A program made the translations under genes and the position numbers. A DNA stretch of 64,000 bases from Ensifer sp. Root278 (lineage in GTDB: Bacteria; Pseudomonadota; Alphaproteobacteria; Rhizobiales; Rhizobiaceae). The notes under the pieces are model-generated. The model was not told where the DNA came from and made no database searches. It saw only the letters and a program-made list of their open reading frames with translations. The stretch spans positions 1 through 64,000 of the forward strand of contig NZ_LMJJ01000007.1 in assembly GCF_001429285.1 (NCBI RefSeq), written 5' to 3'. Below, in pieces: positions 35,381 to 61,182 of the stretch (positions are counted from its first letter, which is position 1; every line of letters starts with the position of its first letter).

Positions 35381-35683
35381 ATGCAGTCGGAAGAACATAT
35401 CGCCAAGGCACCGACAACGGACCCAGTCAAGCGGTGGATGAAGCTCATGGAAGAGTGGAACGCTCTGATTGCGGACTTGAGGGAATTGCGACGTTCCATC
35501 GCAACAGCCGCGAGCGCGGATAACGCTACCTTAATCCAGGCCGAGGCGGCGCTCGTCGCCAAAGGCCAGGCGCTTAAGGAAGAGATTGACGCTGTTCTCG
35601 GCGAGGCCGCCAGTCAACGCCAGCCAGTCAACGGCCCACTGATTGTCGGAACCCTTATTCCGACGCCCAAAGGCGAGCAATAG
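35381..35683 (+). CDS. Small helical protein of unknown function
   Basis: Encodes 100 residues (MQSEEHIAKAPTTDPVKRWMKLMEEW...). GCGAGG precedes the ATG closely. The centre (about 15-80) is predicted helical and charged with heptad-like spacing (WNALIADLRELRRSIATAASADNATLIQAEAALVAKGQALKEEIDAVL), so a coiled coil is likely. No signal peptide or membrane segment. It ends 27 bases before the convergent end of the POTRA-protein gene. No family recognised; the regular helix pattern makes a real gene more likely than chance. Confidence 0.55.
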   Translation: MQSEEHIAKAPTTDPVKRWMKLMEEWNALIADLRELRRSIATAASADNATLIQAEAALVAKGQALKEEIDAVLGEAASQRQPVNGPLIVGTLIPTPKGEQ

Positions 35684-35710
35684 CACACGTTCAGCCTAAC
35701 GCATGCCGTG

Positions 35711-46265: not shown

Positions 46266-46910
46266 TCAGCAACCAATTGCGCGTGCCCATCCGGCCGCGC
46301 GCCGCGCCGCTTCCGTCAACACGGGCTTTGGTGCCTTGTACCATTCCTCTTCAGGAAGGTTGCGCCTATCACGAACGAAGTCGATCGCGGCCTCCAGGGT
46401 TGGGAACTGCTCAGGTAGTGTAAGATGCAGAAACAGCGACACGACGGCTACGGACCGCGAACGGCCGCCGCGGCAATTGACGAGAACCCCACCGCGCTCG
46501 CGCCTTGGGTAGGACGGCTTTTCCGGCAGGATCTGCTCCAGCGCAGCGCGTAGGATATAGTACGCTGCCAACATCTGGGTATCCGGATTCCCGTCCCCGT
46601 CGATCAGCCCGACCTTGTAGTAACGGATCTCACCTGGACCATGGACACTGTTGCGATGATCCGAGACGAGTTGCGGTTGGCGGACGAAATTGAAATCCAG
46701 GTTGACCGCGCAGTTGACGACGGCGGTAATGCCATTGCTGCGCAGGAGATCGAGATCGCTCGCCCCCTCCTTGCCCGCGATGAAGATGTCGACCCCATAG
46801 GCCGGATGCTTGGCGTATATGAGGCTGAGCTTTGGCAACACGCTGCTGGTCTTTTCGGTTGTGGGGGTGTCGGTCGCGCTAATTTGCATGATTTCCTCAT
46901 AGGCAGTCAT
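46266..46910 (-). CDS. Dual-specificity-phosphatase-like protein, copy 1
   Basis: A 214-residue cytosolic protein with the Cys-X5-Arg phosphatase loop VNCRGGRSRSV (Cys146, Arg152); the His usually preceding the Cys is Asn. A candidate general acid lies in GLIDGDGNPD (Asp104/Asp106). The sequence is clearly paralogous to 59614-60234 (both share ITxVVNCAVNLD, YYKxGxIDGDGxPDT and NCRGGRSRSV). Its ATG overlaps the stop of the monophosphatase gene by four bases (ATGA). A phosphatase acting on a small phosphate ester (rather than on protein tyrosine) is likely from the context. It is the last gene of the operon. Confidence 0.82.
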   Translation of the reverse strand: MTAYEEIMQISATDTPTTEKTSSVLPKLSLIYAKHPAYGVDIFIAGKEGASDLDLLRSNGITAVVNCAVNLDFNFVRQPQLVSDHRNSVHGPGEIRYYKVGLIDGDGNPDTQMLAAYYILRAALEQILPEKPSYPRRERGGVLVNCRGGRSRSVAVVSLFLHLTLPEQFPTLEAAIDFVRDRRNLPEEEWYKAPKPVLTEAARRAAGWARAIGC

Positions 46911-47800
46911 GGTGCGAGGACTTTAGCAACACGGCCATCCGAAATGGCCATGGCGACACGGTTCAAGGTCGGATAATCCGCGCCGGCGCCGTATGCCACG
47001 TAACCCGGGCACAGATAATCGGGGGAACCGGCCGGCACCTTGCCGAGGGTCAGAGGCACATAGCGGCCGCCGGCGTTCTTCAGGATCAGCGTGGCGGCCG
47101 CCACGTCCCATGCATTGACACCGAAGCCGGCGGCGGCATCGGCGAAGCCCGCGGCCACATGCGCGATGCTGAGCGCGGCGCTACCGGGCCTTCGCAACGT
47201 TGAGAAGGTCTCGACCAGATCGCCGAAGCGGCGAAGCGCGACATCCTGCCCATCGAGGCGAAAGTCCCTGGAAACGGGATATCCTGTGATCAAGGTCGCA
47301 CGGTTTTCATCGCTGACCGACTTTGAGACGATGACGTGCCCATTCAAATAGGAGCGCTCGAGATCACTCGCGAAGAGCATGTCGGCGACCGGGTCGTAGA
47401 CGACCCCTGCCACGACGGCCCCGGCTTCGACCGCGGCGATCGACACGCACCAGAAAGCAAGCCCTCTGGCGAAATTGGCCGTTCCGTCGATCGGGTCGAC
47501 ATACCACTGGATGTCACCCTTGCCGATCTGGCCTCCTTCCTCGCCAAGCATGGTGGAGTTCGGTTCGTTCGCGAAGATGACGTCGCGGATCAACGCCTCG
47601 GCATTCCTGTCATGTATCGTCACGATATCGTGCAGGTCGCGCTTGTAATCGACCGCCATTTCGGCCCGAAAGGCGGCAATCAGCGACGGTCCGACGGCGC
47701 GGGCAGCGCCCTCGGCAATCTTCATCAGATGACGCGAGCGGCCAAATCGGCCCGCATCGTCCGATCGGCTCTGGCTTGCCTGCGGATAGGCGTTGTCCAT
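46907..47800 (-). CDS. Inositol-monophosphatase-family phosphatase, copy 1
   Basis: A 297-residue Mg-dependent phosphomonoesterase. The signatures are intact: GEEGG, WYVDPIDGTANFARG (metal-binding Asp-Pro-Ile-Asp-Gly-Thr) and the C-terminal WDVAAATLIL. GGAAAAAGAG precedes the ATG at 47800. Family members hydrolyse myo-inositol phosphates, histidinol phosphate, fructose bisphosphate or PAP; this one cannot be assigned further. It follows three binding-protein genes and is coupled to the DSP-like gene. The pair recurs at 59614-61135. Confidence 0.92.
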   Translation of the reverse strand: MDNAYPQASQSRSDDAGRFGRSRHLMKIAEGAARAVGPSLIAAFRAEMAVDYKRDLHDIVTIHDRNAEALIRDVIFANEPNSTMLGEEGGQIGKGDIQWYVDPIDGTANFARGLAFWCVSIAAVEAGAVVAGVVYDPVADMLFASDLERSYLNGHVIVSKSVSDENRATLITGYPVSRDFRLDGQDVALRRFGDLVETFSTLRRPGSAALSIAHVAAGFADAAAGFGVNAWDVAAATLILKNAGGRYVPLTLGKVPAGSPDYLCPGYVAYGAGADYPTLNRVAMAISDGRVAKVLAP

Positions 47801-47870
47801 GCTCTTTTTCCGTTCATTCAGAAACGGCCGGCGCGACCCGCATTCGTGAGGCCGCGCCGAGCCCAAGTTT

Positions 47871-48998
47871 CTATTTGCCGTAGTTAACTCGCCAGAAGTC
47901 CTGCCATTCCTCGCGCCGGTCGAAATCCTCAAGACCCGTTGCGGCATCGTAGGGGAACAGGCGGTCCGCCACTTCCATGATCCCCGACGGCTCGTCCGCC
48001 GGCATCTTGATATCGGAGTTGGTCGGCAGCTTGCCGTCCTTCATCTGCGGCGCAATCCCCTCTTCCGTCAGCACGTAATGGATGAAGAGCCTTGCGGCGT
48101 TCGGGCTTGCGGTCTTTGCCGCGACCATGCCGAGCTTGGTGTAGGTCCAACCGACCCATGGCCGGAGTTCCGTACACAGCCCGAGCTTATAGCCCTTGCC
48201 TTCATTGTCGCGGAACTTGGCCGAACTCAGGAGCCCGAAGAAAGGCTCCTTCTGGCCGGCGGCGCCAACCGCTTCAGCCACCGGGTCGTCGCCTTCCGTG
48301 ACGAGCGGTCCGTTCTGGGCGAGCGCCTTGATCCATGCCGCCGCGGCGCTCTTTTCACCCGTCTCCAAGTCCCTGCCAAAGTGGACCTTGTAGGCCTCCG
48401 CGACCTTGGCGTCGGCGTGTCTCTCCAACTGGTTGAACCAGTCGGTATAGGTACTCTTGGTCAGGGGATCGACGAGCGCGATCTTGCCTTTCCATTTCGC
48501 CTCCGTCAGTTCCCAGATGTTGCTGATGGGGCATTTGTCATAGACCTCGGTGTTATAGGCCCAGACATTGGCATTGGTCGAAATTGCCAGAGGGTTCTGG
48601 AAGGCCGCCGGTATTTTTTCCTTCATATCACCGGGCAGATAGCTTTCGACAAAGCCCTGCGGCAGAAGCTGCGCCAGCGCGCCGGGTGCATCGGTGATCA
48701 GCGCGACATCGCCCTGGACATTGCCGGCCTGCGCCTCCCGGATGATCATCTCCAGCTGGCTGTTTGCCGACACTTTCACGCCCGTTGCCTTGACCCCGTA
48801 TTTGGCAGTGAAGGCCTCGGCCATTTCGACGATCTTGCCTGTACTGTCATAGACGTTGATCGGTTTTTCCTTCTTCGCAGCCTCGACCAACGCTTCGAGA
48901 TCGAAGGCTTCTTCGGCGCGCGCCTCAACTGCGACAGCGGTCGCAAGGGCGGCAAACGCCACCCCCATTACAAGAAACTTGCTGTTGCCTTTTTTCAT
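47871..48998 (-). CDS. Periplasmic binding protein of a ferric-type ABC importer, paralogue 1
   Basis: A 375-residue protein starting MKKGNSKFLVMGVAFAALATAVAVEARAEE (signal peptide; GGGAGGGG before the ATG). Mature sequence: INVYDSTGKIVEMAEAFTAKYGVKATGVKV, then ANVWAYNTEVYDKCPISNIWELT and KLGLCTELRPWVGW. Two cysteines (in DKCP and LGLC) are conserved in all three tandem paralogues and probably form a disulfide. The class includes ferric-ion, thiamine and hexose-phosphate (AfuA) binding proteins; the Tyr ligands that define iron binding were not recognised. With phosphatases in the operon, a phosphate ester is a more likely ligand than iron. Confidence 0.88.
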   Translation of the reverse strand: MKKGNSKFLVMGVAFAALATAVAVEARAEEAFDLEALVEAAKKEKPINVYDSTGKIVEMAEAFTAKYGVKATGVKVSANSQLEMIIREAQAGNVQGDVALITDAPGALAQLLPQGFVESYLPGDMKEKIPAAFQNPLAISTNANVWAYNTEVYDKCPISNIWELTEAKWKGKIALVDPLTKSTYTDWFNQLERHADAKVAEAYKVHFGRDLETGEKSAAAAWIKALAQNGPLVTEGDDPVAEAVGAAGQKEPFFGLLSSAKFRDNEGKGYKLGLCTELRPWVGWTYTKLGMVAAKTASPNAARLFIHYVLTEEGIAPQMKDGKLPTNSDIKMPADEPSGIMEVADRLFPYDAATGLEDFDRREEWQDFWRVNYGK

Positions 48999-49037
48999 GG
49001 TTTCCCCTCCCAAGGAGACCGTTTCAAATTCACGAAG

Positions 49038-50180
49038 CTATTTCTGGTAGTTGATCCGCCAGAGGTCTTGCCAGGTTTCGCGCTTTTGGAGATCGTCATC
49101 GGCCGTCGCAGCATCAAAGACCATCAGTTCACCGAGGTGTTTGGAGACGCCGGAAGGCTCGTCCGCAGGCAGGGCAATCGTCCTGTTGCCGGAGACCTTT
49201 CCGTCAACGGTCTGCGGCGCGATCCCCTCGGCGGTCATGAGATACCGAACAAAAAGCTTCGCCGCGTTCGGGCTCTTCGTCTGGGCGGCGATCAAGCCAA
49301 GGCCGGGATAAAGGAAGCCCGTGAACGGCTCGACACCGGCACAAATACCGAGCTTCAGTCCCTTGGTGACATTCTCCCGGTACTTTGCAGTCGAGGTAAT
49401 CGCAAAGAACGGCTCTGCCTGACCGGGCGCACCTGCGGCCTCGGCCACGGTTGATGAATCGGCGAGCAGCGGGCCATTTGAGGCGAATGCCTTGACCCAA
49501 GCGACCGTTGCGCTCTCGCCTTGCGTATCGAGCGTCTTGCCGTAGTGCGCCTCATAGGCGCGCGCGACGTCGTTGTCGCGATGAGCAGCGATCTGATTGA
49601 ACCAATCCGCATAGAGCGGCTTGTCGAACAGATCGAGCATCGCGACCTTCCCCTTCCATTCCGGCTCGGTCAGCTGCCAGATGTTGGTAATGGGGCATTT
49701 CTCGTACTTCTCCGTGTTGTAGGTCCATACGTGCGGATCGGAGACGACCACCAACGGGTTGCGCGACGTCTCGGCAATGTCACCCGCAAGATCGGGCGGC
49801 GTCCAGCTGGTGGCGATGCCCTCGGGAAGAATCTGCCCAACTGCGGAAGCAACATCCATGGCGAGGCTGACATCGCCGACGGCGTTGCCCGCCTGATGCT
49901 CGCGGATCATGAGTTCGACCTGCGTCGCCTCATTCACCTTCTTGCCATTTGCTTCAATTCCGTATTTTTCGGTGAAGTCTTTGACAGTATCGACGATTTT
50001 GCCGGTCACGGCATAGACTGTGATCGGCGGTTCTTTCTTTGCCGCCGCGATCGTCGCTTCAAGATCGAAGATTTCCTCGCCCTTGGCTGCGGAAGCGAAG
50101 GATATAACGGCCGCCATACCCAAGGCGGTGACGGACACAACCGCTCCGAGCCGACGGGACTCCATGATTTGAGTGCTCAT
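49038..50180 (-). CDS. Periplasmic binding protein of a ferric-type ABC importer, paralogue 2
   Basis: A 380-residue protein starting MSTQIMESRRLGAVVSVTALGMAAVISFASAAKGEE (signal peptide; GAGGA before the ATG). It shares the FDLEATIAAAKKEPPITVYAVTGKIV start, the YEKCPITNIWQLTEPEWKGK segment and LGICAGVEP with its neighbours, but is the most divergent of the three (for example VYAVTGKIVDTVKDF in place of VYDSTGKIVEMAKAF, and PFTGFLYPGLG in place of PWLGWMYPGVG). It probably binds a related but different ligand, or binds with different affinity, and uses the same permease and ATPase. It ends 39 bases before paralogue 1. Confidence 0.88.
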   Translation of the reverse strand: MSTQIMESRRLGAVVSVTALGMAAVISFASAAKGEEIFDLEATIAAAKKEPPITVYAVTGKIVDTVKDFTEKYGIEANGKKVNEATQVELMIREHQAGNAVGDVSLAMDVASAVGQILPEGIATSWTPPDLAGDIAETSRNPLVVVSDPHVWTYNTEKYEKCPITNIWQLTEPEWKGKVAMLDLFDKPLYADWFNQIAAHRDNDVARAYEAHYGKTLDTQGESATVAWVKAFASNGPLLADSSTVAEAAGAPGQAEPFFAITSTAKYRENVTKGLKLGICAGVEPFTGFLYPGLGLIAAQTKSPNAAKLFVRYLMTAEGIAPQTVDGKVSGNRTIALPADEPSGVSKHLGELMVFDAATADDDLQKRETWQDLWRINYQK

Positions 50181-50202
50181 AAAATTATCCTCGGATCTCG
50201 CT

Positions 50203-51339
50203 TCACTTCTGGTAGTTAATGCGCCAGAGGTCCTGCCAGGTTTCGCGTGCGTCCCAGTCGTCGAGGCTGGTCGACATCTCATAAGGCATGACCTGGTCGA
50301 GGACGGCGCCGATGCCGGACGGTTCGTCGGCAGGCAGCGAGACATCCTTGTTCGTCGACATCTTCCCGTCTTCGGCCTGCGGGGCGATGCCTTCGGCGGT
50401 CATCACATAGTGGATGAAGAGCTTCGAGGCGTTCGGGCTGTTGGTGCCCTTTGTGATCAGCCCGACACCTGGATACATCCAGCCGAGCCACGGCTTCAGG
50501 TCCTTGCAAAGCCCGAGCTTCATGCCCTTCTCGGCATTGTCACGAAACTTTGCCGAACTCATCAGTCCCATGAACGGCTGCGATTGACCGGGCGCCCCGA
50601 CGGCATCGGCAGCCGCCGCATCGGCATCGGTCAGGAGCGGAGCATTGGCGGCAAGCGCCTTCACCCAGGCGGCGGTTGCACTGCCGTCGTCGGTTTGAAG
50701 GTCCTTGCCATGGAGCTCCTTATAGGCGGCGGCAACCTTGTCGTCGCCGTGCTTGGCCATCTGGTTGAACCAGTCGACATAGGACGCCTTGCCGAGCGGG
50801 TCCTGCATCGCGACTTTACCCTTCCACTCCGGTCCGGTCAGCTGCCAGATGTTCGTGACCGGACACTTGTCGAAGAGTTCGGTGTTGTAGGCCCAGACAT
50901 TGGCGCTGGTGACCACGGTGAGCGGGTCGTGGTATTGCGCGGAAATCTTCGATGCGAGGTCCGGCGGCAGCCAGCTCTCGGCAAAGCCCTGCGGTATGAG
51001 CTGCGCCATCGCGGCCGGCGCGTCGCTGATGATCGAGACATCGCCCTGGATATTGTTGGCCCGGGCTTCGCGAATGATCATCTCGAGCTGTGCTGTCGCC
51101 TTGACCTTGGAACCCTCGGCGCCCACACCGTATTTCTCGGCAAAGGCCTTGGCCATTTCGACGATCTTGCCGGTGCTGTCGTAGACCGTGATCGGCGGCT
51201 CCTTGCGCGCAGCCTCGATCAGCGCGTTGAGACCGAACGGCTCCTCCGCCAGCGCCGGGCCACCCAGTGTGGCGATGGCCGATGCCAGCAACGCGCGTCT
51301 GATTGCCCGTCTTGTCCTGTCAGTCTTCCGAAATTGCAT
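50203..51339 (-). CDS. Periplasmic binding protein of a ferric-type ABC importer, paralogue 3
   Basis: A 378-residue protein. The N-terminus MQFRKTDRTRRAIRRALLASAIATLGGPALAEE is an unusually arginine-rich signal peptide, reminiscent of but not matching a strict Tat motif. The mature part carries ITVYDSTGKIVEMAKAF, AYNTELFDKCPVTNIWQLTGPEWKGKVAM and LGLCKDLKPWLGWMYPGVG, closest to paralogue 1. It is the first binding-protein gene after the ATPase and is followed 22 bases later by paralogue 2. The three together indicate local gene amplification with retention of all copies as intact genes. Confidence 0.88.
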   Translation of the reverse strand: MQFRKTDRTRRAIRRALLASAIATLGGPALAEEPFGLNALIEAARKEPPITVYDSTGKIVEMAKAFAEKYGVGAEGSKVKATAQLEMIIREARANNIQGDVSIISDAPAAMAQLIPQGFAESWLPPDLASKISAQYHDPLTVVTSANVWAYNTELFDKCPVTNIWQLTGPEWKGKVAMQDPLGKASYVDWFNQMAKHGDDKVAAAYKELHGKDLQTDDGSATAAWVKALAANAPLLTDADAAAADAVGAPGQSQPFMGLMSSAKFRDNAEKGMKLGLCKDLKPWLGWMYPGVGLITKGTNSPNASKLFIHYVMTAEGIAPQAEDGKMSTNKDVSLPADEPSGIGAVLDQVMPYEMSTSLDDWDARETWQDLWRINYQK

Positions 51340-51386
51340 CGTCTGTTCCTCCCTCAGAGCGTGTTTCTGTTTATCGCTGTGGCGCC

Positions 51387-52517
51387 TTAGTTCAGCGTGC
51401 GCGCACGCAGAAGCGCGTCCGCTTCGGCGATGCGCTGGCCGTCTTTGTCGAAGACGTGCAGCGCATCGGATGGCGCAAAAAAATCGACCCTGGATCCGGT
51501 CTCGACGCGCGGGAGCGCGTTGGTTGTCAGGAACAGCGTGTCGTTGTCGTTCCTCAGTTCAAGGATCCAGCTGCCGCCGGTCGGCAAGACCCCAGTCACC
51601 GTCATCTCACCTGTGAAGCTTCCGGCCGGAACATCCCCGCCCTTTGTCGCGTAGCCGATCGCTTCCGGCCGGATGCCGACCGAACCGACGCCGCGCGACG
51701 ACGGATAGCGCTCGCCGAGATAGGCTGCGGCGGCCCGCGACATCGCCGATGCGGACGATCCGAAGGTCAGGATATTGATCGGCGGGCTGCCGACGAATTC
51801 TGCAACGAAGCGATTGGCGGGGCGGTCGTAGATATCGTTCGGCGTGCCCATCTGCTGCAACGTGCCTTCGTTCATGACGGCAATCGTCGTCGCCAGCGTC
51901 ATCGCTTCCCATTGGTCGTGTGTCACGAAGACGATCGTCGTCTTGAATTCCTTGTGGATGCGCTTGAGCTCCGCCCGCATTTCGAGACGCAGCCGCGCAT
52001 CGAGGTTGGAGAGCGGCTCGTCGAGCAGAAGCACGCCCGGATTGACCGCGAGCATCCGGGCAAGCGCCACACGCTGCTGCTGGCCGCCGGAAAGTTGCGA
52101 GGGGTAGCGGTCGCGATATTTGGCGATGTCGAGCGCTTGCATGACCTTCTCGACCCGCTGCTCCCGCTCTTCCTTCGGCAGCTTGCGCAGGCGCAGACCG
52201 AAGTCGGTATTGCGTTCGATGGTCAGATGCGGCCACAGCGCGTAGCTCTGGAAAACAAGCCCCATCTCGCGCTTTTCCGGGGGTATGAACACACCTGCCC
52301 TGACCGAGTCAACCACACGCTCGCCAATGCGGATTTCTCCATCGGAGAGGTTCTCGAGGCCGGCGATCATACGCAGCGTCGTGGTCTTGCCGCAGCCGGA
52401 CGGCCCGAGCAGACACATGAACTCACCGTCGCGGATTTCGAGGTCAAGGTTCGAAACGGCATTGGCGGAATTCACGCCATAGTTCTTCTGAGCACCGCTG
52501 AGATTGATGGTGGGCAT
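51387..52517 (-). CDS. ABC transporter ATPase of the ferric-type/organophosphate importer
   Basis: A 376-residue ATPase: Walker A GPSGCGKTT (38-46), Q-loop FQSYALWPHL, signature LSGGQ (142-146), Walker B LLLDEP, THDQ, then a C-terminal regulatory domain of about 130 residues. The start at 52517 overlaps the permease stop by one base (TGATG), which decides against the longer open frame upstream. Ferric-type importers use such an FbpC-like ATPase with one fused permease. It should serve all three adjacent binding proteins. Confidence 0.93.
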   Translation of the reverse strand: MPTINLSGAQKNYGVNSANAVSNLDLEIRDGEFMCLLGPSGCGKTTTLRMIAGLENLSDGEIRIGERVVDSVRAGVFIPPEKREMGLVFQSYALWPHLTIERNTDFGLRLRKLPKEEREQRVEKVMQALDIAKYRDRYPSQLSGGQQQRVALARMLAVNPGVLLLDEPLSNLDARLRLEMRAELKRIHKEFKTTIVFVTHDQWEAMTLATTIAVMNEGTLQQMGTPNDIYDRPANRFVAEFVGSPPINILTFGSSASAMSRAAAAYLGERYPSSRGVGSVGIRPEAIGYATKGGDVPAGSFTGEMTVTGVLPTGGSWILELRNDNDTLFLTTNALPRVETGSRVDFFAPSDALHVFDKDGQRIAEADALLRARTLN

Positions 52518-54367
52518 CAGCTTCCGAGTCCTTCTGCGAGGTTGGTCTTGGTCAGCTTCTGGGCTGCCAGGGTTCCGAGATAGGCGATGGCGGCGATGAT
52601 CAGCACGACCGCGTTTGCCGCCTGGGTGTAGTGGTAGTCGACGAGCCGGAGCGAGTAGGTCGTCAGCACATCGGTGCTCGGCACGGCGAGGATGACGAAG
52701 AGGCTCAGCCCCTTGATGCCGGAGATGAACGGCAACAGCACGCCAGTGACGAGCGACCCCTTCTGGATCGGGATGACGATCGAGATCATCCGTCGGAACC
52801 AGCCGGCGCCGGCGATCTGGGCCGCCTCTTCGGGATCCTTGCCGAGTTGGGTCATGGCGGAAATACCGGCGCGCGAGGCATAGGGCATCTGGTCGGCAAT
52901 CAGCGCCAGGATCAGGATCGTGACCGTGCCGTAGAGAGCGGGCATTGGCCCACGCGGCACGGCGAAGAGCGAGAGGTAGGCGGCGGCGAAGGCGATGCCG
53001 GGCACCAGATAGGGCAGGAAGGTCACCTGGCGCAGATAGACCGACAGCGCTTTGACCGGTGTGCGGATGACGACATAGCCGACGAACAGGCCGAGGATGC
53101 CGGAGGTCAGCGAGGCAAGACCGACGATCATGAGCGTGTTCTTGGCGGCAGCCCACAGGTCCGGGCTCAAGAGTATGCCTGTCTGCAGCGCCACAGTGTT
53201 GAGATCACGGCCGATCCAGTAGTCGAGCGTGAAGTTGTCGAGTGTAAACTGTGCCGGCAGCTTCATGATGGTGGACAGGAACAGGGTGAGCAGCGGCAAC
53301 CCGACGCTCAGCAGGAAGATAAGCGCGGCGAAACCCGTCGCCGGCAGACGATACTTACCAAGCCGGCTCTGGCGGTTCATCGAGCCCTTCGAGCCGACGG
53401 TGACAAACCGTCTGGCTTCGCGGACAAGCCGGGCGTCGATCATCAGGGTCATGATGCCGATCAGCATGATCGAGGCCGCGACGACACCGGCAACGCCCGT
53501 CTGACGGGAGGCGATGCTGCGGAAGAGAGACGTCGAGAGCACTTCGAACTTGACCGGCAGGCCGAGGACATAGGGTACGCCGAACTCGCCGAGGCATTTG
53601 GCGAAGATCAGCACCATGGAGGACAGCAGCGCCGGGCGCATCAGCGGCAGGATGATCTGGATCGCCACCTGGTAACGCTTGGCTCCCAGGATGCGCGCGG
53701 AGTCTTCGAGCTGCGAGTCGAAACGGCGAAGAGCCGAGCCAAACAGCAGGATGACGAACGGCGTATAGTGCAGCGCCAGGATAACGATGATCGGGAAGCG
53801 ACCATAGGCGACCCAATCGGGCGGCGTCAGCCCCATCGCCTCGAACCACCCTGGTTGGCCGCCAACCGTCCTGTTCTTGAAGAGCGTCGTCCAGGCGAGC
53901 GCGAAGGTCCAGGCTGGCAGCATGTACGGCACTATGAGCGCGGTCGCGAACCAGCGGCGCCCAAACATATCTGTTCGGCTGATCAACCATGCGAGCACAG
54001 TCCCGATCAGCAGCGACAGGCTGATGGCCCCGAGGGCGACCGACAGGGTGTTCAGGAGGGGCCGCCAGAAGAGATCAACCGAAACAGGTGAAAGGAACGC
54101 ACGATCAAGATAGTAGAGCGTCAGATCACCAAAATCCTTGCCGAGCCGCCGCTCGTGACCGAACTGAACCCGAACTGAATCCAAGACGATCGAAATAATC
54201 GGCACGACGATCAGATAGGTGAACAGAAGAGCCGTCAGGATTCCGATCAATGTGGTCGGCTCCCGGGAAGCGACCTTCGCGCGATAGCGCCAGCGCTGCC
54301 ATGGCGTCGGCGCGATCGCGCCATCTGGCACTGTCGACGCCTTGGCTGTTTCACTCAATAAGGCCAT
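52517..54367 (-). CDS. Fused two-domain ABC permease (FbpB/AfuB type)
   Basis: A 616-residue permease made of two homologous membrane halves in one chain, each with about six transmembrane segments and its own coupling loop: DSARILGAKRYQVAIQIILP in the first half and EAAQIAGAGWFRRMISIVIP in the second. GAGGGGAAGAGC precedes the ATG at 54367; the frame is open for another 109 codons, but that part has no protein character and runs into the promoter. The fused organisation is standard for ferric, 2-aminoethylphosphonate and hexose-phosphate importers. It is the first gene of operon A. Confidence 0.92.
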   Translation of the reverse strand: MALLSETAKASTVPDGAIAPTPWQRWRYRAKVASREPTTLIGILTALLFTYLIVVPIISIVLDSVRVQFGHERRLGKDFGDLTLYYLDRAFLSPVSVDLFWRPLLNTLSVALGAISLSLLIGTVLAWLISRTDMFGRRWFATALIVPYMLPAWTFALAWTTLFKNRTVGGQPGWFEAMGLTPPDWVAYGRFPIIVILALHYTPFVILLFGSALRRFDSQLEDSARILGAKRYQVAIQIILPLMRPALLSSMVLIFAKCLGEFGVPYVLGLPVKFEVLSTSLFRSIASRQTGVAGVVAASIMLIGIMTLMIDARLVREARRFVTVGSKGSMNRQSRLGKYRLPATGFAALIFLLSVGLPLLTLFLSTIMKLPAQFTLDNFTLDYWIGRDLNTVALQTGILLSPDLWAAAKNTLMIVGLASLTSGILGLFVGYVVIRTPVKALSVYLRQVTFLPYLVPGIAFAAAYLSLFAVPRGPMPALYGTVTILILALIADQMPYASRAGISAMTQLGKDPEEAAQIAGAGWFRRMISIVIPIQKGSLVTGVLLPFISGIKGLSLFVILAVPSTDVLTTYSLRLVDYHYTQAANAVVLIIAAIAYLGTLAAQKLTKTNLAEGLGS

Positions 54368-54652
54368 GCTCTTCCCCTCGGAACTCGACATGCGCAATCT
54401 GTCGCGGCGATCGAAGCCGGGCAGCGCTCCAGTAATGTTGATGGGGAAGCAGAGTTCGCGCTTCGCTCTACGCAGCGCGCGCAGCGCCGCACACGGACAC
54501 AAGATACCGCACCCGCCCGGCTCCAATCCTCCCCACTCGCGGACAGGTACGAACGCCCTGCCAAAACGACAGCTCCAACTCCTCAAAGGCGCCGCCATTG
54601 TCGCGAACACAGACGGAACAAATATTCCAAAAACTCTCCGGCTGTGGAATGC

Positions 54653-54681
54653 ATGATCCAACGCAGACTTAATCTTGTCAA
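54653..54681 (-). promoter_or_regulatory. Candidate sigma-70 promoter of operon A
   Basis: On the minus strand, a perfect TTGACA (54681-54676) is followed after 17 bases by GATCAT (54658-54653, four of six matches to TATAAT). The palindrome at 54690-54703 lies nine bases upstream of the -35 box. The position would suit either activation or repression by the divergent regulator. Confidence 0.45.
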
Positions 54682-54689
54682 TAAAAAAA

Positions 54690-54703
54690 TGCACACGTGC
54701 GCA
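54690..54703. promoter_or_regulatory. Palindromic operator candidate of the organophosphate regulon (operon A)
   Basis: TGCACACGTGCGCA is a 14-bp palindrome with one mismatched pair and a central CpG. Two close relatives (TGCACACGCGTGCA and TGCACGCGTGTGCA) lie in front of operon B at 61149-61182. It is situated between operon A and the divergent LacI-type regulator, the usual place for such an operator. Confidence 0.65.
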
Positions 54704-54946
54704 ATGATTTATCCGTCTGTTTTAATTGATATTTTTTTGATGGTTGGCTATTCATTTTAGAACACGTGATCAATCGCCTATCGAGGGGTCTTTCCGAGGC
54801 TACGATCAATGGCGAGCGCGGAGGTAAAAGTACCGTGGATAGAGGCTGTCGAGCGGGAGCCGTGGACTGTCGGTCCTAAGCGGGTGCTTGCACTTTTTCG
54901 TTGGAATGGGGCAGCTTTTATGGCCCTGATGGAAATGTCTGATTCA

Positions 54947-55948
54947 ATGGGGGAAGGCATGGCAAGAGGGTTCGTGACGGCCGAGGAAGTCGCAAAGCGC
55001 GCGGGCGTCTCGCGCTCGGCGGTCTCTCGGACCTTTACACCTGGAGCCAGCGTTTCCCAGTCCGTGAGGCGCAAGGTTTTGAAGGCTGCCCGGGAGCTCG
55101 GCTACCGTGTCAACCGGCTGGCGCAAGGCTTGAACAACGACCGATCGAACCTGATCGGTGTCGTCGGCGCCAACCTCAGCTCACCCTTCATTTCGAAACA
55201 GCTCGATCTGCTGAGCATCGGCCTCTTGCGAAAGGGTTTGCAGTGCCTGCTACTCAATGCCGCGGATGCCCGCAAGGATATCGCGCCGCTGATCGAACTG
55301 CTCTTCGAGTTCCGCGCGCAGGCCATCGTGGTTCTTTCCGGAGAGCCGCCGGAATCCATCGTCGACCAGTGCATCGCGAACGGCGTTAGGTTGATCCTCA
55401 TCAACCAGAAACTCGAACGCACCGATACGAGCATGGTCTTGAGCGACGATTCCCGTGGCGCCGATCTCGCGGCCGTTCGGTTGATTGAGGCGCAGTGCAA
55501 GAAGGTCGCGGTCATTTCAAGCGGCAGTCAGACACCGGCGCAGGTTCGTCGGGCAACGGCTTTCAAGCAGAAGATGGCTACGGCAGGCGTTGAAGTCGTT
55601 GCCTGGTCGGGCGGCCCGACCAGCTACGAGAGTGGCTATCAGGCCGGTTGTGAGGTGCTGAAAGATGAGGCCATTGACGGCGCATTCTGCGTCACCGATC
55701 TGCTCGCCCTCGGCTTTCTAGATGCGGCGCGTACCGAGATGCATCGCCGCATCCCTGCCGACCTTTCCGTCGTTGGCTTCGACGATATTCCGCAGGCGAG
55801 TTGGAAGAGCTACGAGCTCACCACCGTCGCGCAATCCTTTACCGCGCTGACCGATCACGTGCTGGCCGCGCTTGATTCCGACGATGCCGAAACCCGTCTC
55901 CGGGTCGTGCCCGTCGCGATGGTCGAGCGCAAGACGGCAAGACGCTAA
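54947..55948 (+). CDS. LacI-family transcriptional regulator of the organophosphate regulon
   Basis: A 333-residue regulator beginning MGEGMARGFVTAEEVAKRAGVSRSAVSRTFTPGASVSQSVRRKVLKAARELGYRVNRLA; the HTH uses SAVSRTF in place of TVSRVL, a variant seen in rhizobial LacI proteins. The effector domain follows (LIGVVGANLSSPFISKQLDLL, DLSVVGFDDIPQASW). The true start is uncertain: ATGs at 54935, 54947 and 54959 are all in frame; GGGGGAAGG lies too close to 54959. It is divergent from operon A, and operon B begins beyond the convergent neighbour gene, so it is placed between the two sets it probably controls. Confidence 0.88.
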   Translation: MGEGMARGFVTAEEVAKRAGVSRSAVSRTFTPGASVSQSVRRKVLKAARELGYRVNRLAQGLNNDRSNLIGVVGANLSSPFISKQLDLLSIGLLRKGLQCLLLNAADARKDIAPLIELLFEFRAQAIVVLSGEPPESIVDQCIANGVRLILINQKLERTDTSMVLSDDSRGADLAAVRLIEAQCKKVAVISSGSQTPAQVRRATAFKQKMATAGVEVVAWSGGPTSYESGYQAGCEVLKDEAIDGAFCVTDLLALGFLDAARTEMHRRIPADLSVVGFDDIPQASWKSYELTTVAQSFTALTDHVLAALDSDDAETRLRVVPVAMVERKTARR

Positions 55949-55957
55949 GCCATTTCC

Positions 55958-57604
55958 TCAAGAAGCCGCCGGCCTGATGCGGCTGTCGATCAACAGTCCG
56001 CTTTGATCCAGGATCGGATGCGCAACCGACGCGATATGCGCATTGATGCGCTTCAAGTCGCGCAACATGTCGAGATGAAGCGAGCTGGTTTCGATGCTTT
56101 CGGCGCGTCCGTCGCGTAGCCGTTGGAGATGCCGTTCGGCCGATTGCCGCTCCAATCTGCGAACATCTTCTTTCGCTTCGACAAGGCGCCGCGCCATGGC
56201 GTTGTCGCGCGTGGCAAATACCGCCTGCGCCATGCGCAGGTTGTCGATCGTGACCGCGAACAGCCGCGATAGTTCTTCGTGGCCGTCGCGGGAAAAGGTA
56301 AGGCCTCGAGTAATCTTCTTCGCGAGTTCGGCCAACAAACCCTTTTCGATGATGTCGCCGATGTGCTCGAGGTTGATGGCATAGTCGACGATGTCCGTGG
56401 CCCGGCGTCGGTGCTGGTCGCCGATTTCGGTCTGGCCCACGCGGGAGACATACACCTTGATTTCGTGCTGAACGCGATCGACCCGCCCCTCGAGCGCACT
56501 GATCGTCGACAGCTTGGAAATGTCCGTCTGCTGTAGCGCGTCGTTTGCCTGCACGAGCATGCGCTCGATCATGTCCCCGACGCCGAGGACCTCGCGGCTG
56601 GCGCCAGCGAGGGCTGCAACAGGTGTCTGTAGATCGCTCTGTTCCAGAAACGACCGGCCATTCTCGGCTTTAGCCGGGTCCGGCAAAAGCCGCGTGGTCA
56701 GGCGAGAAAGCGAGCCAGTGAAAGGAGCAGCCAGGACCGCCAGCGCAAGATTGAAGCCGAGATGCGCGTCGACCGGCAGCTTGTCGTGCGACAGGGGCAG
56801 CAGTTCGAGCAATTGGGCGGAATAGCCAGCGAGCGGCAGCGCCAGAAAGCAACCGACCGCCCGCACGATCAGGTTACCAACCGCAACGCGCCTGGCGCTC
56901 GGCGCTGCATGCAGCGTGGCCAGCACCGGCGGCACGGCCCCGCCAAGATTTGCGCCGAGCACAAGGACGATGAGCAGGCCTGTCGAAAGGTGCCCTGATG
57001 CCGCAAGCGAGAGGATCAACACCACGATCGCCAGGCTGGACGAGGCAAGCACGGCGAGGACGGCGGAGATGATGAGGGCGACCGGCCAGGCGTTGTCGAG
57101 CAGCGCGAGGAAGGCCGAAAGCGCGGCTGATGTGCGAAGCGGCTCCGTCGCGGCGCCGATCAGATGCAGCGACAGCAACATCAGCCCGATGCCCACAAGG
57201 GCAGCACCTGCCCCCTTGCGTGCGTTCGAGCTTCCACGCCCCACGACAACGCCAGAAAGCAACAGAAGCGGCGAAAGCCAACCCACGCCCATTGCGACGA
57301 TCCAAGCAGTCATTGCCGTTCCGACATTGGCGCCAAGCAACACCACTTGCGCTATGCGGGGCAGGATGAGGTCACGCTCGACGAAGGACGCGACCATGAG
57401 GGCGGTGGCGGTCGAACTCTGAAGAGCGACGGTCGCAACAAGGCCGGCAAAGAAGGCGCGCGGACTATCGCGCGTTCCGGTCGCCAGGCCCGCCTTCAGG
57501 CGAGCACCGAAGGCGCGCTGCATGCCGTCACGCACCAGACCGAGACCGAACAGAAGCAGGGCCACGGCGCCGAAGAGATTGATGCTGACGATCGCCGAAT
57601 CCAT
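55958..57604 (-). CDS. Na/Pi cotransporter family protein (NptA-like) with PhoU-like C-terminus
   Basis: A 548-residue inner-membrane protein. The N-terminal 300 residues contain two repeats with the family QSS/SSS motifs: LQSSTATALMVASF (about 61-74) and VLASSSLAIVVLILSLAASGH (about 185-205), plus LLGANVGTAMTAW and LVLGANLGGAVPP. The C-terminal 220 residues are helical and PhoU-like. Family members move inorganic phosphate with sodium. GGGGAGAGG precedes the ATG. As last gene of operon B, it could import or export phosphate and so balance the phosphate released by the upstream phosphatases. Confidence 0.9.
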   Translation of the reverse strand: MDSAIVSINLFGAVALLLFGLGLVRDGMQRAFGARLKAGLATGTRDSPRAFFAGLVATVALQSSTATALMVASFVERDLILPRIAQVVLLGANVGTAMTAWIVAMGVGWLSPLLLLSGVVVGRGSSNARKGAGAALVGIGLMLLSLHLIGAATEPLRTSAALSAFLALLDNAWPVALIISAVLAVLASSSLAIVVLILSLAASGHLSTGLLIVLVLGANLGGAVPPVLATLHAAPSARRVAVGNLIVRAVGCFLALPLAGYSAQLLELLPLSHDKLPVDAHLGFNLALAVLAAPFTGSLSRLTTRLLPDPAKAENGRSFLEQSDLQTPVAALAGASREVLGVGDMIERMLVQANDALQQTDISKLSTISALEGRVDRVQHEIKVYVSRVGQTEIGDQHRRRATDIVDYAINLEHIGDIIEKGLLAELAKKITRGLTFSRDGHEELSRLFAVTIDNLRMAQAVFATRDNAMARRLVEAKEDVRRLERQSAERHLQRLRDGRAESIETSSLHLDMLRDLKRINAHIASVAHPILDQSGLLIDSRIRPAAS

Positions 57605-57621
57605 GGCCTCTCCCCTGAACG

Positions 57622-57915
57622 CTACTGTCTGCCGCGCATCAACTCGGCCCTGAAGAGCCGCTGAAAGGCCGCGTAGCTTTCGAAGCCAAGATCGCTGACC
57701 AGGCGCATCACGGTCGTCGTCGAGACACCACTGCGTTCGGCCACTTCGCGCGCACTCGCAAAGGCGACATCATAGGGGTGAGCAAGCACGAACTTCGCCA
57801 CCTCGAGGCGCCCGCCCTTCAATCGCCGAACGCCGAGGCGGCAGGACTCTCGCAGTTCGATGAAGGTCGCAGGCGCGGCGGTGGAGGTCGCGCGGACGGA
57901 CAACTGATGCGTCAT
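57622..57915 (-). CDS. Stand-alone RpiR-type HTH protein lacking the SIS domain
   Basis: Encodes 97 residues. The C-terminal two-thirds (RLKGGRLEVAKFVLAHPYDVAFASAREVAERSGVSTTTVMRLVSDLGFESYAAFQRLFRAEL, about 31-92) is the N-terminal HTH_6 domain of RpiR regulators. Full-length RpiR proteins are about 280 residues and continue into a sugar-phosphate-binding SIS domain, which is absent here; the following gene starts 17 bases after the stop, with no SIS remnant. It is either a truncated regulator or a DNA-binding protein that works without its own ligand domain. It begins two bases after the phosphoesterase stop. Confidence 0.78.
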   Translation of the reverse strand: MTHQLSVRATSTAAPATFIELRESCRLGVRRLKGGRLEVAKFVLAHPYDVAFASAREVAERSGVSTTTVMRLVSDLGFESYAAFQRLFRAELMRGRQ

Positions 57916-57917
57916 GT

Positions 57918-59621
57918 TCAGGCCGCCTCCTCTTTCGCGGACGCGTTCTCAATGCGGATGCGAAGACCGCCAGCCTCGGCGCGATCGAGGAAGGCGTCAA
58001 ACGCGCCGAAGAAGATCGAAAGGAACCCGTCCGTCGAGCCATCCCAGCCGCTTTCCGGAGGGCGCCCAAACCGTTCAGCGAGTGCGCGATAAAGCCAAAG
58101 GCGTGGCGCGGGAATTTTGTCGAGTGCAAGCACCGAGGCCTGCCGCAGGCAATACCAATCGGCGATCAGCTCGAGCATATCGAGGCGAGCCAACTGACCG
58201 GCATCTTCGAGCGCGCATGCCGCGACCACATCTGTTATCGTGCCGGGACCACCGAGGCGTTCGCAGACACCTTCGACAGTGAGCCCGGAAATTTCGTCGA
58301 CGACTTCCTTCGGCCATTCCTTCGGGAAATAGCGGTGCTGGACCAGAGCACGCTTGTGCGCCTTCAGGAGCGCTCCGTAGTCAGACGGATCAAAGGCGGG
58401 ATCAAGGTTTTCTTCCAGTTGCGCCATTTCGCGTCGATAGCCGTGCAGGATGCGCGGATCGACAGCAGTGGAATGCAGTTCAATAGTTTCAACCAAGAAA
58501 TCCGATGCGGATGACTCGACAACCTTGAAGGCTGGTGGAAAGGCCACCAGTGACGGCACGGCAATATTGGTAAGTTGCCGACCGCCCCGTTCTCGGCGTG
58601 TGACGCCCTCGACATGCAGATGTCCGCTGAAATGCACCGTCATTCCGCAGTCGATGAGCACTTCCGCGACGGCCTCGCGTGGCGTCCTGCGGGCAATGTT
58701 GGTCTCGCCGAAGAGCACGCCTTCGGCTCCCGTCGCGCCGTCGAAGGGGTCGAGCACCGGGTAATGCGAGAAGGCAAGAAGCGTTTTGCCGAGGCTCCTG
58801 GCCCGCGCCGATACGTCGGCGATCCACTCGATGATGAACGGCTTCAGCCTCAACAGTGCGTTCCAGCCGGCGCCGGTACTGTCGACGAAGGCGGCCTCGC
58901 CGCCCTCCTCCTCGAAGGTTCCGTCGCGCGGCTCGAACACGTTGGCATCGATCATCATCAGCCAGAGGCCGGGCGCCGGCTCGACCAGATAGGAAGCGTC
59001 CATCAGCGTGTAGCTGTTTCGGCCATCGGAGGATGAAACCTGATATAGCCGGTCCTCGGCCTTGTCCGAGGTGCCGAATGGCGTCTCCCAATGGATGTCG
59101 CCGGGCCTCCGGAAGTATCCGAACGCGGCCATGGGGGCGAGACCCTTCGGATATCCCTCACAGTACATCAGCGGCGTTGCGTACGTACCAGGGCCAGCCT
59201 TCTCGCCGTCGCTCGTGACAATGACCCTCGCGGCGTTCGCACCAAGGAACTGCTTCGTGTGATGGCGCCCCTTCGGGCCGAAGATGTCGTGGTTGCCGGG
59301 AAGCGCATAGAAGCGCGTATCGTGCTCGCGTTCGTGTCGCTCCAGGATGGCGCGCAGCCGTTCGGTGGTTTGCCTTTGGCCGTCATCCGTGTAGTCGCCG
59401 AGAAGGACGACATGCCGGATGTCGCGCCGAAGCACCTCCGCAAGCGCCTCGTCCAATGCCTTCGCACTCTCGTTGAAAACGCGGGTGGACTCGCGGGTAT
59501 CGGCCCAGCTTCTGATGGCAATCCTCTCGCCATCGACCTCGATGGCGGGAAATTCGAAGTTACCCTCAAGATCATGAAAGTGAGCATCGGCAATGACGGC
59601 GATCCGCGGCAAATCAGCCAT
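57918..59621 (-). CDS. Calcineurin-type metallophosphoesterase
   Basis: A 567-residue enzyme with the full set of two-metal motifs: ADAHFHD (residues 9-15), GDYTDDG (about 77-83), GNHD (about 109-112), FSHYPV and SGHLHVEG (about 335-342). The C-terminal 200 residues are helical and unique. No signal peptide is visible, so it should act in the cytoplasm. The ATG at 59621 overlaps the DSP-like gene by eight bases. Such enzymes split phosphodiesters or monoesters, for example glycerophosphodiesters or cyclic nucleotides. In this operon it may release an alcohol group from an imported phosphodiester before the monophosphatases act. Confidence 0.88.
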   Translation of the reverse strand: MADLPRIAVIADAHFHDLEGNFEFPAIEVDGERIAIRSWADTRESTRVFNESAKALDEALAEVLRRDIRHVVLLGDYTDDGQRQTTERLRAILERHEREHDTRFYALPGNHDIFGPKGRHHTKQFLGANAARVIVTSDGEKAGPGTYATPLMYCEGYPKGLAPMAAFGYFRRPGDIHWETPFGTSDKAEDRLYQVSSSDGRNSYTLMDASYLVEPAPGLWLMMIDANVFEPRDGTFEEEGGEAAFVDSTGAGWNALLRLKPFIIEWIADVSARARSLGKTLLAFSHYPVLDPFDGATGAEGVLFGETNIARRTPREAVAEVLIDCGMTVHFSGHLHVEGVTRRERGGRQLTNIAVPSLVAFPPAFKVVESSASDFLVETIELHSTAVDPRILHGYRREMAQLEENLDPAFDPSDYGALLKAHKRALVQHRYFPKEWPKEVVDEISGLTVEGVCERLGGPGTITDVVAACALEDAGQLARLDMLELIADWYCLRQASVLALDKIPAPRLWLYRALAERFGRPPESGWDGSTDGFLSIFFGAFDAFLDRAEAGGLRIRIENASAKEEAA

Positions 59622-60234
59622 TGGAATTGACCTGCGCACGCGATGTTTCGACGAGATCGATCCAGGCGGAGGCACGCCTTGCCGCTTCGTACAGCATGGG
59701 CTTCGGCGTCTCGAACCATTCGTCCTGCCTCAGTTCGCGGTGCTCCCGGATGTGGGCGACTGCGGCGTCCAGCGTTGGAAACAGATGCGGCTGTTGCTTG
59801 TGCAGAAAAAGCGCCACCAACGATACGGAGCGACTACGCCCGCCGCGGCAATTGACCAGAATGTTGCCGCCGTCGACGAATGGGTAGGTTGAGCGTTTCG
59901 GCATCGTCTGGCGCAAAGCGCCATCGAGAATGTAATAAGCGCCGAGCATCATCGTGTCCGGGCTGCCGTCACCGTCAATCATGCCGAGCTTGTAGTAGCG
60001 TATGTCGGCGTAACCACTCGCACAGAGGTCATCGTTGACTGCAATTTCCTCTTCGCGCACCAGATTGATATCCAAGTTGACCGCGCAATTGACGACGATG
60101 GTGATCCCGTGGCGCTTGAGCAGATCCATGTCGCGCGCGCCGTCGCTACCGCCGATATAGAGATCGGCGCTGTGCGGTCCGAGCCCTTTTGCGATCAGAC
60201 TGATTGCGGGGCGCGCATATACCGGTGCATTCAT
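59614..60234 (-). CDS. Dual-specificity-phosphatase-like protein, copy 2
   Basis: A 206-residue paralogue of 46266-46910 with the Cys-X5-Arg loop NCRGGRSRS (Cys129, Arg135) and Asn in place of the usual His before the Cys. The segments ITIVVNCAVNLD, YYKLGMIDGDGSPDT and HIREHRELRQDEWFETPKPML correspond to copy 1. It lies 61 bases after the second monophosphatase gene. Presence of the same IMPase-DSP pair in two operons points to a two-step or paired dephosphorylation. Confidence 0.82.
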   Translation of the reverse strand: MNAPVYARPAISLIAKGLGPHSADLYIGGSDGARDMDLLKRHGITIVVNCAVNLDINLVREEEIAVNDDLCASGYADIRYYKLGMIDGDGSPDTMMLGAYYILDGALRQTMPKRSTYPFVDGGNILVNCRGGRSRSVSLVALFLHKQQPHLFPTLDAAVAHIREHRELRQDEWFETPKPMLYEAARRASAWIDLVETSRAQVNSNG

Positions 60235-60295
60235 TGGTGTTTCCTTCTAGGGCGGCGAACGCGTCGTTCGGCCGGTGATCCCGCCATTCGTTGAT

Positions 60296-61135
60296 TCAGG
60301 CCGATTGAAGCGCAGCCGTCATTTCGCGGGCGCTGACCGGAATGCCCGAAGCCTCGCTCACACCAGCAGCGATGGCCGGTGTCGACGCAAGCACCGGCCC
60401 TCCCTCCTGAAGGCTGCCGATCTCCATGAAGGGGCACACGACGCCGCCCGCTTCGGCCACGAGCAGGAGCCCGGCGAGACAATCCCATGAGTTCATATGC
60501 AATTCCACATAGGCGTCCGAGCGCCCGTCGGCAACATAGGCAAGCGCAAGTGCGCCCGACGCGCCGCGTCGGACATTGGCTCCTTTGGCGAGCATCCCCC
60601 GCATGGTTTCGAGGTAGGCCTCGTCCGGCACGCGGCGTGACCATCCCATTTCGATGGAGGCCGCATCGAATGCGACCGTCGACGAGATGCCGATGGGTTT
60701 TTCGTTCAATGTCGCTCCAGCCCCCCTTCGACAAAAATAGAGTTCGTCCTGAGCGGGATTATAGATGGCGCCGATCTCTGCCCTGCCCCGCTCCACATAG
60801 GTGATCGAGATGCAGAAATGCGGGATCCCGCGCGCAAAATTGGCAGTGCCATCCACCGGGTCGACGACCCACATGCGCTCGGCGATCAAGCCGCCGCCTT
60901 CCTCTCCCAGAAATGCATCGCCAGGGAAGTGTGTCGCAATCGCCTGACGGATGTGAGCCTCGGACGCAGCATCGGTCTCGGTCAGAAAGTCCTGAGGGCC
61001 CTTCAACGAGAAGCCGCGCCTGAAACTCTCTTTGAAACCGGCGAGCACCAGCTCGCCAGCGGAGCGAATGACGTCCCGACATAACGACGCTCGCCCTGCG
61101 AGATCATTGGAATAGTGCGGATTTTGATCGTTCAT
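60296..61135 (-). CDS. Inositol-monophosphatase-family phosphatase, copy 2
   Basis: A 279-residue Mg-dependent phosphomonoesterase. Motifs: DFLTETDAASE, GEEGG, MWVVDPVDGTANFARG and the C-terminal NSWDCLAGLLLVAEAGG (WDxAx variant). GGAG lies just before the ATG at 61135, and only 13 bases further upstream the inverted repeat 61149-61182 begins. It is the first gene of operon B. It is related to the monophosphatase at 46907 but is not a close duplicate, so the two probably differ in substrate. Confidence 0.92.
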   Translation of the reverse strand: MNDQNPHYSNDLAGRASLCRDVIRSAGELVLAGFKESFRRGFSLKGPQDFLTETDAASEAHIRQAIATHFPGDAFLGEEGGGLIAERMWVVDPVDGTANFARGIPHFCISITYVERGRAEIGAIYNPAQDELYFCRRGAGATLNEKPIGISSTVAFDAASIEMGWSRRVPDEAYLETMRGMLAKGANVRRGASGALALAYVADGRSDAYVELHMNSWDCLAGLLLVAEAGGVVCPFMEIGSLQEGGPVLASTPAIAAGVSEASGIPVSAREMTAALQSA

Positions 61136-61148
61136 CAGTGGGACTCCA

Positions 61149-61182
61149 GTGCACACGCGTGCACATTTGCACGCGTGTGCAC
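61149..61182. promoter_or_regulatory. 34-bp inverted repeat, double operator candidate in front of operon B
   Basis: GTGCACACGCGTGCA (61149-61163) and TGCACGCGTGTGCAC (61168-61182) are exact inverted complements separated by CATT. Each arm is itself nearly palindromic and resembles the operator candidate at 54690-54703. The repeat lies 14 bases from the ATG of the monophosphatase gene, so a bound protein would block transcription into operon B. Confidence 0.75.

Follow-up and report, generated by a model that had tools for sequence, protein, structure and literature searches.

A LacI-linked locus of Ensifer sp. Root278 predicted to take up and dephosphorylate inositol phosphates

Gene content of the locus

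The DNA analyzed here, referred to as the window, is a 64,000-nucleotide stretch of Ensifer sp. Root278 (contig NZ_LMJJ01000007.1, positions 1 to 64,000) from a genome of 7.1 Mb in 44 contigs. Two minus-strand operons are present within 46266-61135, operon 2 lying upstream of operon 1, and a LacI-family regulator gene sits between them. Together they probably import inositol phosphates and remove their phosphate groups, under putative LacI control. Operon 1 encodes, in order, a fused two-domain ABC permease (52517-54367; PF00528, BPD_transp_1, in two stretches), an ABC ATPase (51387-52517; PF00005, E 4.5e-34), the binding proteins SBP1 (50203-51339), SBP2 (49038-50180) and SBP3 (47871-48998), the inositol-monophosphatase (IMPase)-family protein IMP1 (46907-47800) and the dual-specificity-phosphatase-like protein DSP1 (46266-46910). 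Operon 2 encodes IMP2 (60296-61135), DSP2 (59614-60234), the calcineurin-like metallophosphoesterase PE (57918-59621), a 97-aa RpiR-type helix-turn-helix (HTH) protein lacking a sugar-binding domain (57622-57915; PF01418, 29.1 bits against a cut-off of 28.3) and a Na/Pi cotransporter-family protein with C-terminal PhoU domains (55958-57604; PF02690 and PF01895; TIGR01013, 334 bits against a cut-off of 306). Genes within each operon are spaced by −8 to 70 bp. All of these genes had been called in a first-pass annotation of the window and were recovered at these coordinates; the LacI-family gene (54809-55948, plus strand; PF00356, E 1.1e-10, and Peripla_BP_3), whose true start is probably near 54959, had been overlooked.

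IMP1 (PF00459, E 1.6e-49; GEE, DPIDGTANF and WD) and IMP2 (PDB matches; GEE, DPxDGTANF and WD) both belong to the inositol monophosphatase family, combining a profile or structure match with the GEE, DPxDGTxNF and WD motifs. Their nearest PDB matches were inositol monophosphatases and SuhB, with a best E of 2.1e-42 for IMP2. DSP1 (214 aa) matched PF00782 (DSPc) with E 9.4e-8 and 32.4 bits, slightly under the 33.5 cut-off, and carries the CX5R motif NCRGGRSRS. DSP2, which also has CX5R, is 52% identical to DSP1 (E 6e-64), and the motif is invariant across an 11-row DSP alignment. An AF2 model of DSP1 (pLDDT 71.5) matched structures of dual-specificity phosphatases (DUSPs), the best with E 5.8e-8; the CX5R loop and the fold together assign DSP1 to the dual-specificity phosphatase superfamily. 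A protein-tyrosine-phosphatase-like phytase was considered for DSP and set aside, as the best 50 of 1046 structure matches were mostly DUSP-type proteins and contained no phytase. PE (567 aa) is a calcineurin-like phosphoesterase, with a PF00149 match (E 1.3e-11) and the motifs DAH, GDY, GNHD and GHLH, which fit D-x-H, GD, GNHD and GHxH. By eye, no signal peptide was apparent in any of the five phosphatases, whereas all three binding proteins have one.

Importer class and binding proteins

The fused two-domain permease, the single ATPase and the family of the binding proteins place the importer in the ferric-type (Fbp/Afu/Phn) class of ABC importers. The Pfam scan of binding proteins covered SBP2 and SBP3, both of which matched PF13531, and the N-terminal signal sequence of SBP3 was recognized by eye. 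SBP3 is 62% identical to SBP1, and profile searches linked SBP1 weakly to structures of the ferric-type family, AfuA (4r72) among them. SBP1 was found in every fetched locus from the same genus, from S. meliloti and from Agrobacterium-labelled genomes.

In ferric iron binding proteins, adjacent tyrosines ligate Fe3+. The segment TYYIGLL of 1y4t aligned to the consensus EPFIGLL, so that the tyrosine pair is replaced by P-F; this result carries modest weight, the second-domain alignment to 1y4t being weak (i-Evalue 5.5). On this alignment the binding proteins appear to lack the adjacent tyrosines of the FbpA type. Import of 2-aminoethylphosphonate was also considered and set aside. PhnSTUV and PhnU2-PhnT2 share the ferric-type architecture with the window's importer, but the window's proteins score far under the curated cut-offs: the highest-scoring permease model, PhnU2, gave 141 bits against a cut-off of 593, and the ATPase gave 330 bits against 458 for PhnT2. 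The ATPase fell under the cut-off for every one of the best 25 of 187 NCBIfam models.

The binding protein profile matched AfuA 4r72 with E 4.3e-7, no better than several iron-annotated proteins. AfuA belongs to Actinobacillus AfuABC, a hexose- and heptose-phosphate importer, and binds glucose-6-phosphate according to the accessible part of its report (PMC4546632). The AfuA contacts given in the accessible part of a second report (PMC8427247) are Ser37, Gly38, Thr60 and Ser148-Thr150 for the phosphate and Tyr103, His205 and Gln269 for the ring. Ser37 aligned to a non-conserved position of the binding proteins, although the numbering was inferred and the alignment is weak for most sites. AfuABC is like the present system in being a ferric-type importer mistaken for iron uptake, with a phosphate ester as ligand and a class-level profile similarity. 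It differs in that the present system has cytoplasmic phosphatases, a LacI regulator and up to three binding proteins, that the AfuA phosphate contacts are not clearly conserved here and that linked genes point to inositol. P5PA, of the same importer class, binds a phosphorylated ring ligand, pyridoxal phosphate; the available portion of the same report describes P5PAB as confined to Pasteurellaceae and mentions no phosphatase partners for it (PMC8427247). The system in the window is predicted to be a variant of the ferric-type phosphate-ester importers and not a new kind. The acc operon for agrocinopine catabolism offers another comparison: there a sugar phosphodiester is imported and then processed by a phosphodiesterase and an IMPase-like phosphatase, but the acc importer is a peptide-type ABC system and the one here is ferric-type.

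Operator-like palindromes

Tandem palindromes, TGCACACGCGTGCA (61150-61163) and TGCACGCGTGTGCA (61168-61181), lie directly upstream of IMP2 and hence of operon 2, and a near-palindrome of the same kind, TGCACACGTGCGCA (54690-54703), lies in the intergenic region between the permease and LacI genes. The pattern TGCACNCGNGNGCA occurs at seven sites in the 7.1-Mb genome, three of them at this locus; with one mismatch allowed, the pattern had nine matches in the window against 3.4 expected. One further perfect palindrome in the genome, at C40:504124, is located among genes that appear unrelated by eye.

In a set of 20 loci that includes the window, the half-site TGCNCACGTG was present in 18 of the permease/LacI gaps, and 34 of its 36 matches (both strands counted) fell inside those gaps. 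A site before operon 2 was found in nine of 16 loci, as the tandem pair in eight and as one palindrome in S. meliloti, and was absent from the other seven, which limits the evidence for shared control of operon 2 to the clade that has the site. Operator-like sites common to both operons, in the window and in part of the relatives, speak for the earlier proposal of one regulon, and for these genomes a single regulon is well supported as a sequence-based prediction. The inositol catabolic (iol) genes were also considered as targets of the same operator; this was set aside, as a search of L103-L122 (20 loci) found the palindrome in none.

Regulators of the LacI family typically control sugar operons. 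No PhoB box was detected in the locus with up to three mismatches allowed, and the window as a whole had two matches against 3.4 expected. The LacI regulator with its shared sites and the lack of a PhoB box in the locus favor induction by a carbon compound, and a carbon-source role suits the locus better than a role in phosphate starvation.

Conservation of the importer and phosphatases

The host is of Ensifer/Sinorhizobium type, its nearest named matches being Sinorhizobium chiapasense, Ensifer adhaerens and further Ensifer. Within the genus, DSP1 was detected in 15 of 16 genomes, the window's own among them, and a further 45 genomes from the family or order had none. On a wider scale the DSP family is also rare: at E 1e-10 or better it was detected in four of 385 genomes from the class and in six of 398 from the phylum, again counting the own genome. 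Gene order was kept in all 14 same-genus loci fetched despite the loss or breakage of single genes, which argues that the locus is beyond chance. SBP2 was found in six of these 14 loci, and in one (L041) SBP3 and IMP1 are reduced to remnants. The Na/Pi gene is absent from L037 and L040 and truncated or in pieces in L032, L038 and L041. In L038 (11168-14703) about 2 kb interrupts it, and in L032 (10541-10957) it is likewise defective; in these two loci and in L037 and L040 the other core genes were found.

The order agrees in four Agrobacterium-labelled loci (L046 and L048-L050), from the Na/Pi gene to DSP1, the limit of the flank. It also agrees in two S. meliloti pSymB loci (L052 and L053) except for the RpiR gene, whose relative comes after DSP1; in L053 this RpiR-type gene (25908-26276) stands behind DSP1 in operon 1, whereas the window's lies in operon 2. 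The importer genes of S. meliloti 1021 are probably SMb20155-8. This assignment rests on the fit of SMb20162 (described, in the accessible part of the source, as a transcription factor), SMb20163 (an uncharacterized protein) and SMb20164 (a histidine kinase) to the genes that follow DSP1 in L053, and on the description of SMb20155-8, in the available text of a study of the EcpR1 sRNA, as an ABC transporter operon that was strongly upregulated (PMC4414408).

Beyond these relatives, a core of permease, ATPase, binding protein, IMP, DSP and LacI recurs in Thioclava and in the genomes G579 and G732, and versions with IMP and DSP fused occur in Klebsiella and Erwinia. PE is absent from the cores of Thioclava, Erwinia, Klebsiella and the genus of G579. 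The association of phosphatases with the importer, whose failure to recur had been named beforehand as grounds for abandoning the idea, was thus found again in Rhizobiaceae, Thioclava, Erwinia, Klebsiella, G732 and the genus of G579, and in the Pseudomonadota loci looked at phosphatases are regular companions of the importer.

A sister system, found in hosts that include Pannonibacter, Paracoccus and Alloyangia, consists of an ATPase, a binding protein, a permease, a metallo-beta-lactamase (MBL)-fold hydrolase and a DSP of the same family, with a LacI gene adjoining in most cases. Four of seven such loci (L059 and L079-L081) have similar palindromes between the LacI and ATPase genes. This sister system probably handles a related but different phosphate ester.

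Linkage to inositol catabolism and phytase homologues

The genus of G579, which belongs to the same phylum as the host but to another class, was represented by 48 genomes, 20 of which carry DSP, at 23 sites in all. iolB belongs to myo-inositol catabolism. Twelve of the 23 DSP sites lie less than 5 kb from iolB, at distances of 1.7 to 4.1 kb, and of the 13 genomes with both genes 12 show this arrangement; chance would place about 0.3% of sites there (10-kb target, 4-Mb genome), an estimate to be read with the relatedness of these genomes, which are not independent. The near-iolB sites comprise seven full importer operons (L105 and L108-L113) and five solo DSPs (L077, L114, L121, L122 and L125). 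All five solo DSPs have iolB inside 5 kb, but only seven of the 18 importer operons do, and in G579, G804 and G834 the DSP at iol is a solo one with the importer at another place; iol linkage is therefore more secure for DSP than for the importer. At L077, Pfam identified IolB, together with families that fit IolC, IolD, IolE and two MocA-type dehydrogenases. The genome of the window itself has iolB.

A second line of evidence comes from two annotated Klebsiella pneumoniae plasmids (L055 and L129), which carry, in this order, a KdgM porin, a histidine phosphatase, the permease, the ATPase, a binding protein, the IMP-DSP fusion and a LacI-type regulator. The best PDB match of the histidine phosphatase was a 3-phytase (E 8.5e-82). 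The phosphatase was found at 93-100% identity in all three of the named records among four Klebsiella DSP records; NZ_CP138437, which also has it, is probably the remaining one. In Erwinia the IMP-DSP fusion occurs without the phytase, and an Azospirillum phytase homologue had no importer within the stretch shown. As a separate observation, the porin, phytase homologue, importer and fusion set is flanked on both sides by insertion sequences (L055:4840-13594 and L129:3531-12306), suggesting mobility of the system on plasmids.

Six distant PE loci were also looked at. In Catenovulum, a phosphatidylinositol-specific phospholipase C (PI-PLC) adjoins PE and an inositol oxygenase lies about 5 kb off; in Variovorax, a phytase-annotated protein adjoins; and in Shinella PSBB067, PE is accompanied by two importers and an IMPase.

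Discussion

The first-pass annotation had proposed that an intact phosphate ester is imported and dephosphorylated inside the cell, and both the recurring association and the phosphatases without signal peptides support this. Of its example ligands, inositol phosphates gained ground from the iol neighbors, the Klebsiella phytase homologue and the PI-PLC near a distant PE. We therefore regard a LacI-controlled system for inositol phosphates as probable, with lower inositol phosphates, for example products of phytate breakdown or of phosphoinositides, as the most likely ligand that we infer. Under such a scheme, periplasmic binding proteins would capture the ester and the ferric-type importer would take it in intact. 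The IMPase-family and DSP-like phosphatases would strip the phosphates in the cytoplasm, PE would handle diester, cyclic or other forms, and the inositol skeleton would feed into the iol pathway, whose genes lie elsewhere in the genome, with the LacI protein as the putative switch. The Na/Pi-PhoU protein may serve as an exit for surplus phosphate. YjbB, likewise a Na/Pi cotransporter-type protein, is described as a Pi exporter in the accessible part of one report (PMC11389368), but export by the window protein would follow by analogy and the window-type gene is often lost in relatives; this frequent loss indicates that the Na/Pi protein is helpful and not essential.

Several observations weigh against this reading. 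Linkage to iol or phytase genes was seen only in distant relatives and not around the window's operons. The principal doubt about the ligand arises in the genus of G579, where 11 of 18 importer operons have no iolB inside 5 kb and iolB is missing from seven of the 20 genomes with DSP; the system there may take a different range of ligands, or its benefit may be phosphorus. Counted by genome, DSP and iolB co-occur weakly, at a suggestive level at most (13 of 20 versus 10 of 28, Fisher p 0.078), and the weight rests on their co-localization. On the protein side, the SBP1 model (pLDDT 52) is too poor for its pocket to be read, IMP1 (120 bits) and IMP2 (148 bits) missed the PRK10757 (inositol-1-monophosphatase) cut-off of 332, many sugar phosphates serve IMPase-family proteins as substrates and the DSP fold resembles protein phosphatases. 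The Klebsiella phytase homologue also matches glucose-1-phosphatases further down the PDB list. Among the versions of the system, only that of Klebsiella showed the phytase homologue. No histidine acid phosphatase was found in the window's genome, other phytase families not having been searched, and the host may therefore depend on inositol phosphates released by others. Relatives of PE lie near glycosyltransferases in Phyllobacterium and Shinella WSC3-e and near phosphotransferase system and GH38 genes in Chimaeribacter. Seven loci (L059-L061, L073 and L079-L081) have the MBL hydrolase and no IMP hit or annotation, two of them adjoining uronate-catabolism-like genes (by eye), and in L074 and L075 the DSP adjoins a more distant importer, again with no IMP hit. 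Five of the 14 same-genus loci lack an intact Na/Pi gene.

A more specific version, rather unlikely on present evidence, is that a dedicated ABC importer takes in intact inositol polyphosphates (phytate-derived InsP2-InsP4 or higher), that a new family of DSP-fold enzymes acts beside IMPase as inositol polyphosphate phosphatases, and that the carbon of phytate is used inside while phosphate is pumped out as waste. Another phosphate ester, such as a hexose, heptose or pentose phosphate taken in by an AfuABC-like importer and hydrolyzed by IMPase-family sugar phosphatases, seems unlikely. The profile match to AfuA, the sugar phosphate and pyridoxal phosphate bound by AfuA and P5PA, the LacI regulator and the seven DSP genomes without iolB all speak for it, but AfuA is no nearer than several iron-annotated proteins, its Ser37 falls at a non-conserved position and the repeated linkage to iolB and phytase would be left unexplained. 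It is less probable still that the ligand is a diester, such as glycerophosphoinositol or a cyclic inositol phosphate, cut by PE or the MBL enzyme before IMPase acts. The PE superfamily includes diesterases, PI-PLC adjoins one distant PE relative and the MBL hydrolase is present where IMPase is missing; the cores without PE, however, show that a diesterase is dispensable for the core substrate. A ferric iron importer, with phosphatases present by chance or freeing iron from phytate or phosphate complexes, is very improbable: family-level similarity to iron-binding proteins and records annotated 'iron ABC transporter permease' favor it, but the tyrosine pair reads P-F (in the weak second-domain alignment), phosphatases are regular companions of the importer and we know of no LacI proteins that regulate iron.

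Inositol phosphates, above all phytate, make up a major share of the organic phosphorus in soil, and most phytases are regarded as acting outside the cytoplasm. Among the papers listed, no title or abstract opening names a bacterial ABC importer for inositol phosphates, most subscription journals lying outside the search. If uptake of inositol phosphates is the function, plant-associated bacteria could use partly degraded phytate for both carbon and phosphorus with no phosphate lost to neighbors, the 'iron permease' genes of many rhizobia would be renamed and a role would be suggested for the small DSP family. With its importer operon probably at SMb20155-8 on pSymB, S. meliloti is a model organism in which this reading is testable.

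Other features of the window

Elsewhere in the window, one minus-strand open reading frame of 2416 aa spans 23644-30894. The G+C content falls to 0.518 at 34001-36000 against about 0.61, and this segment is possibly acquired DNA.

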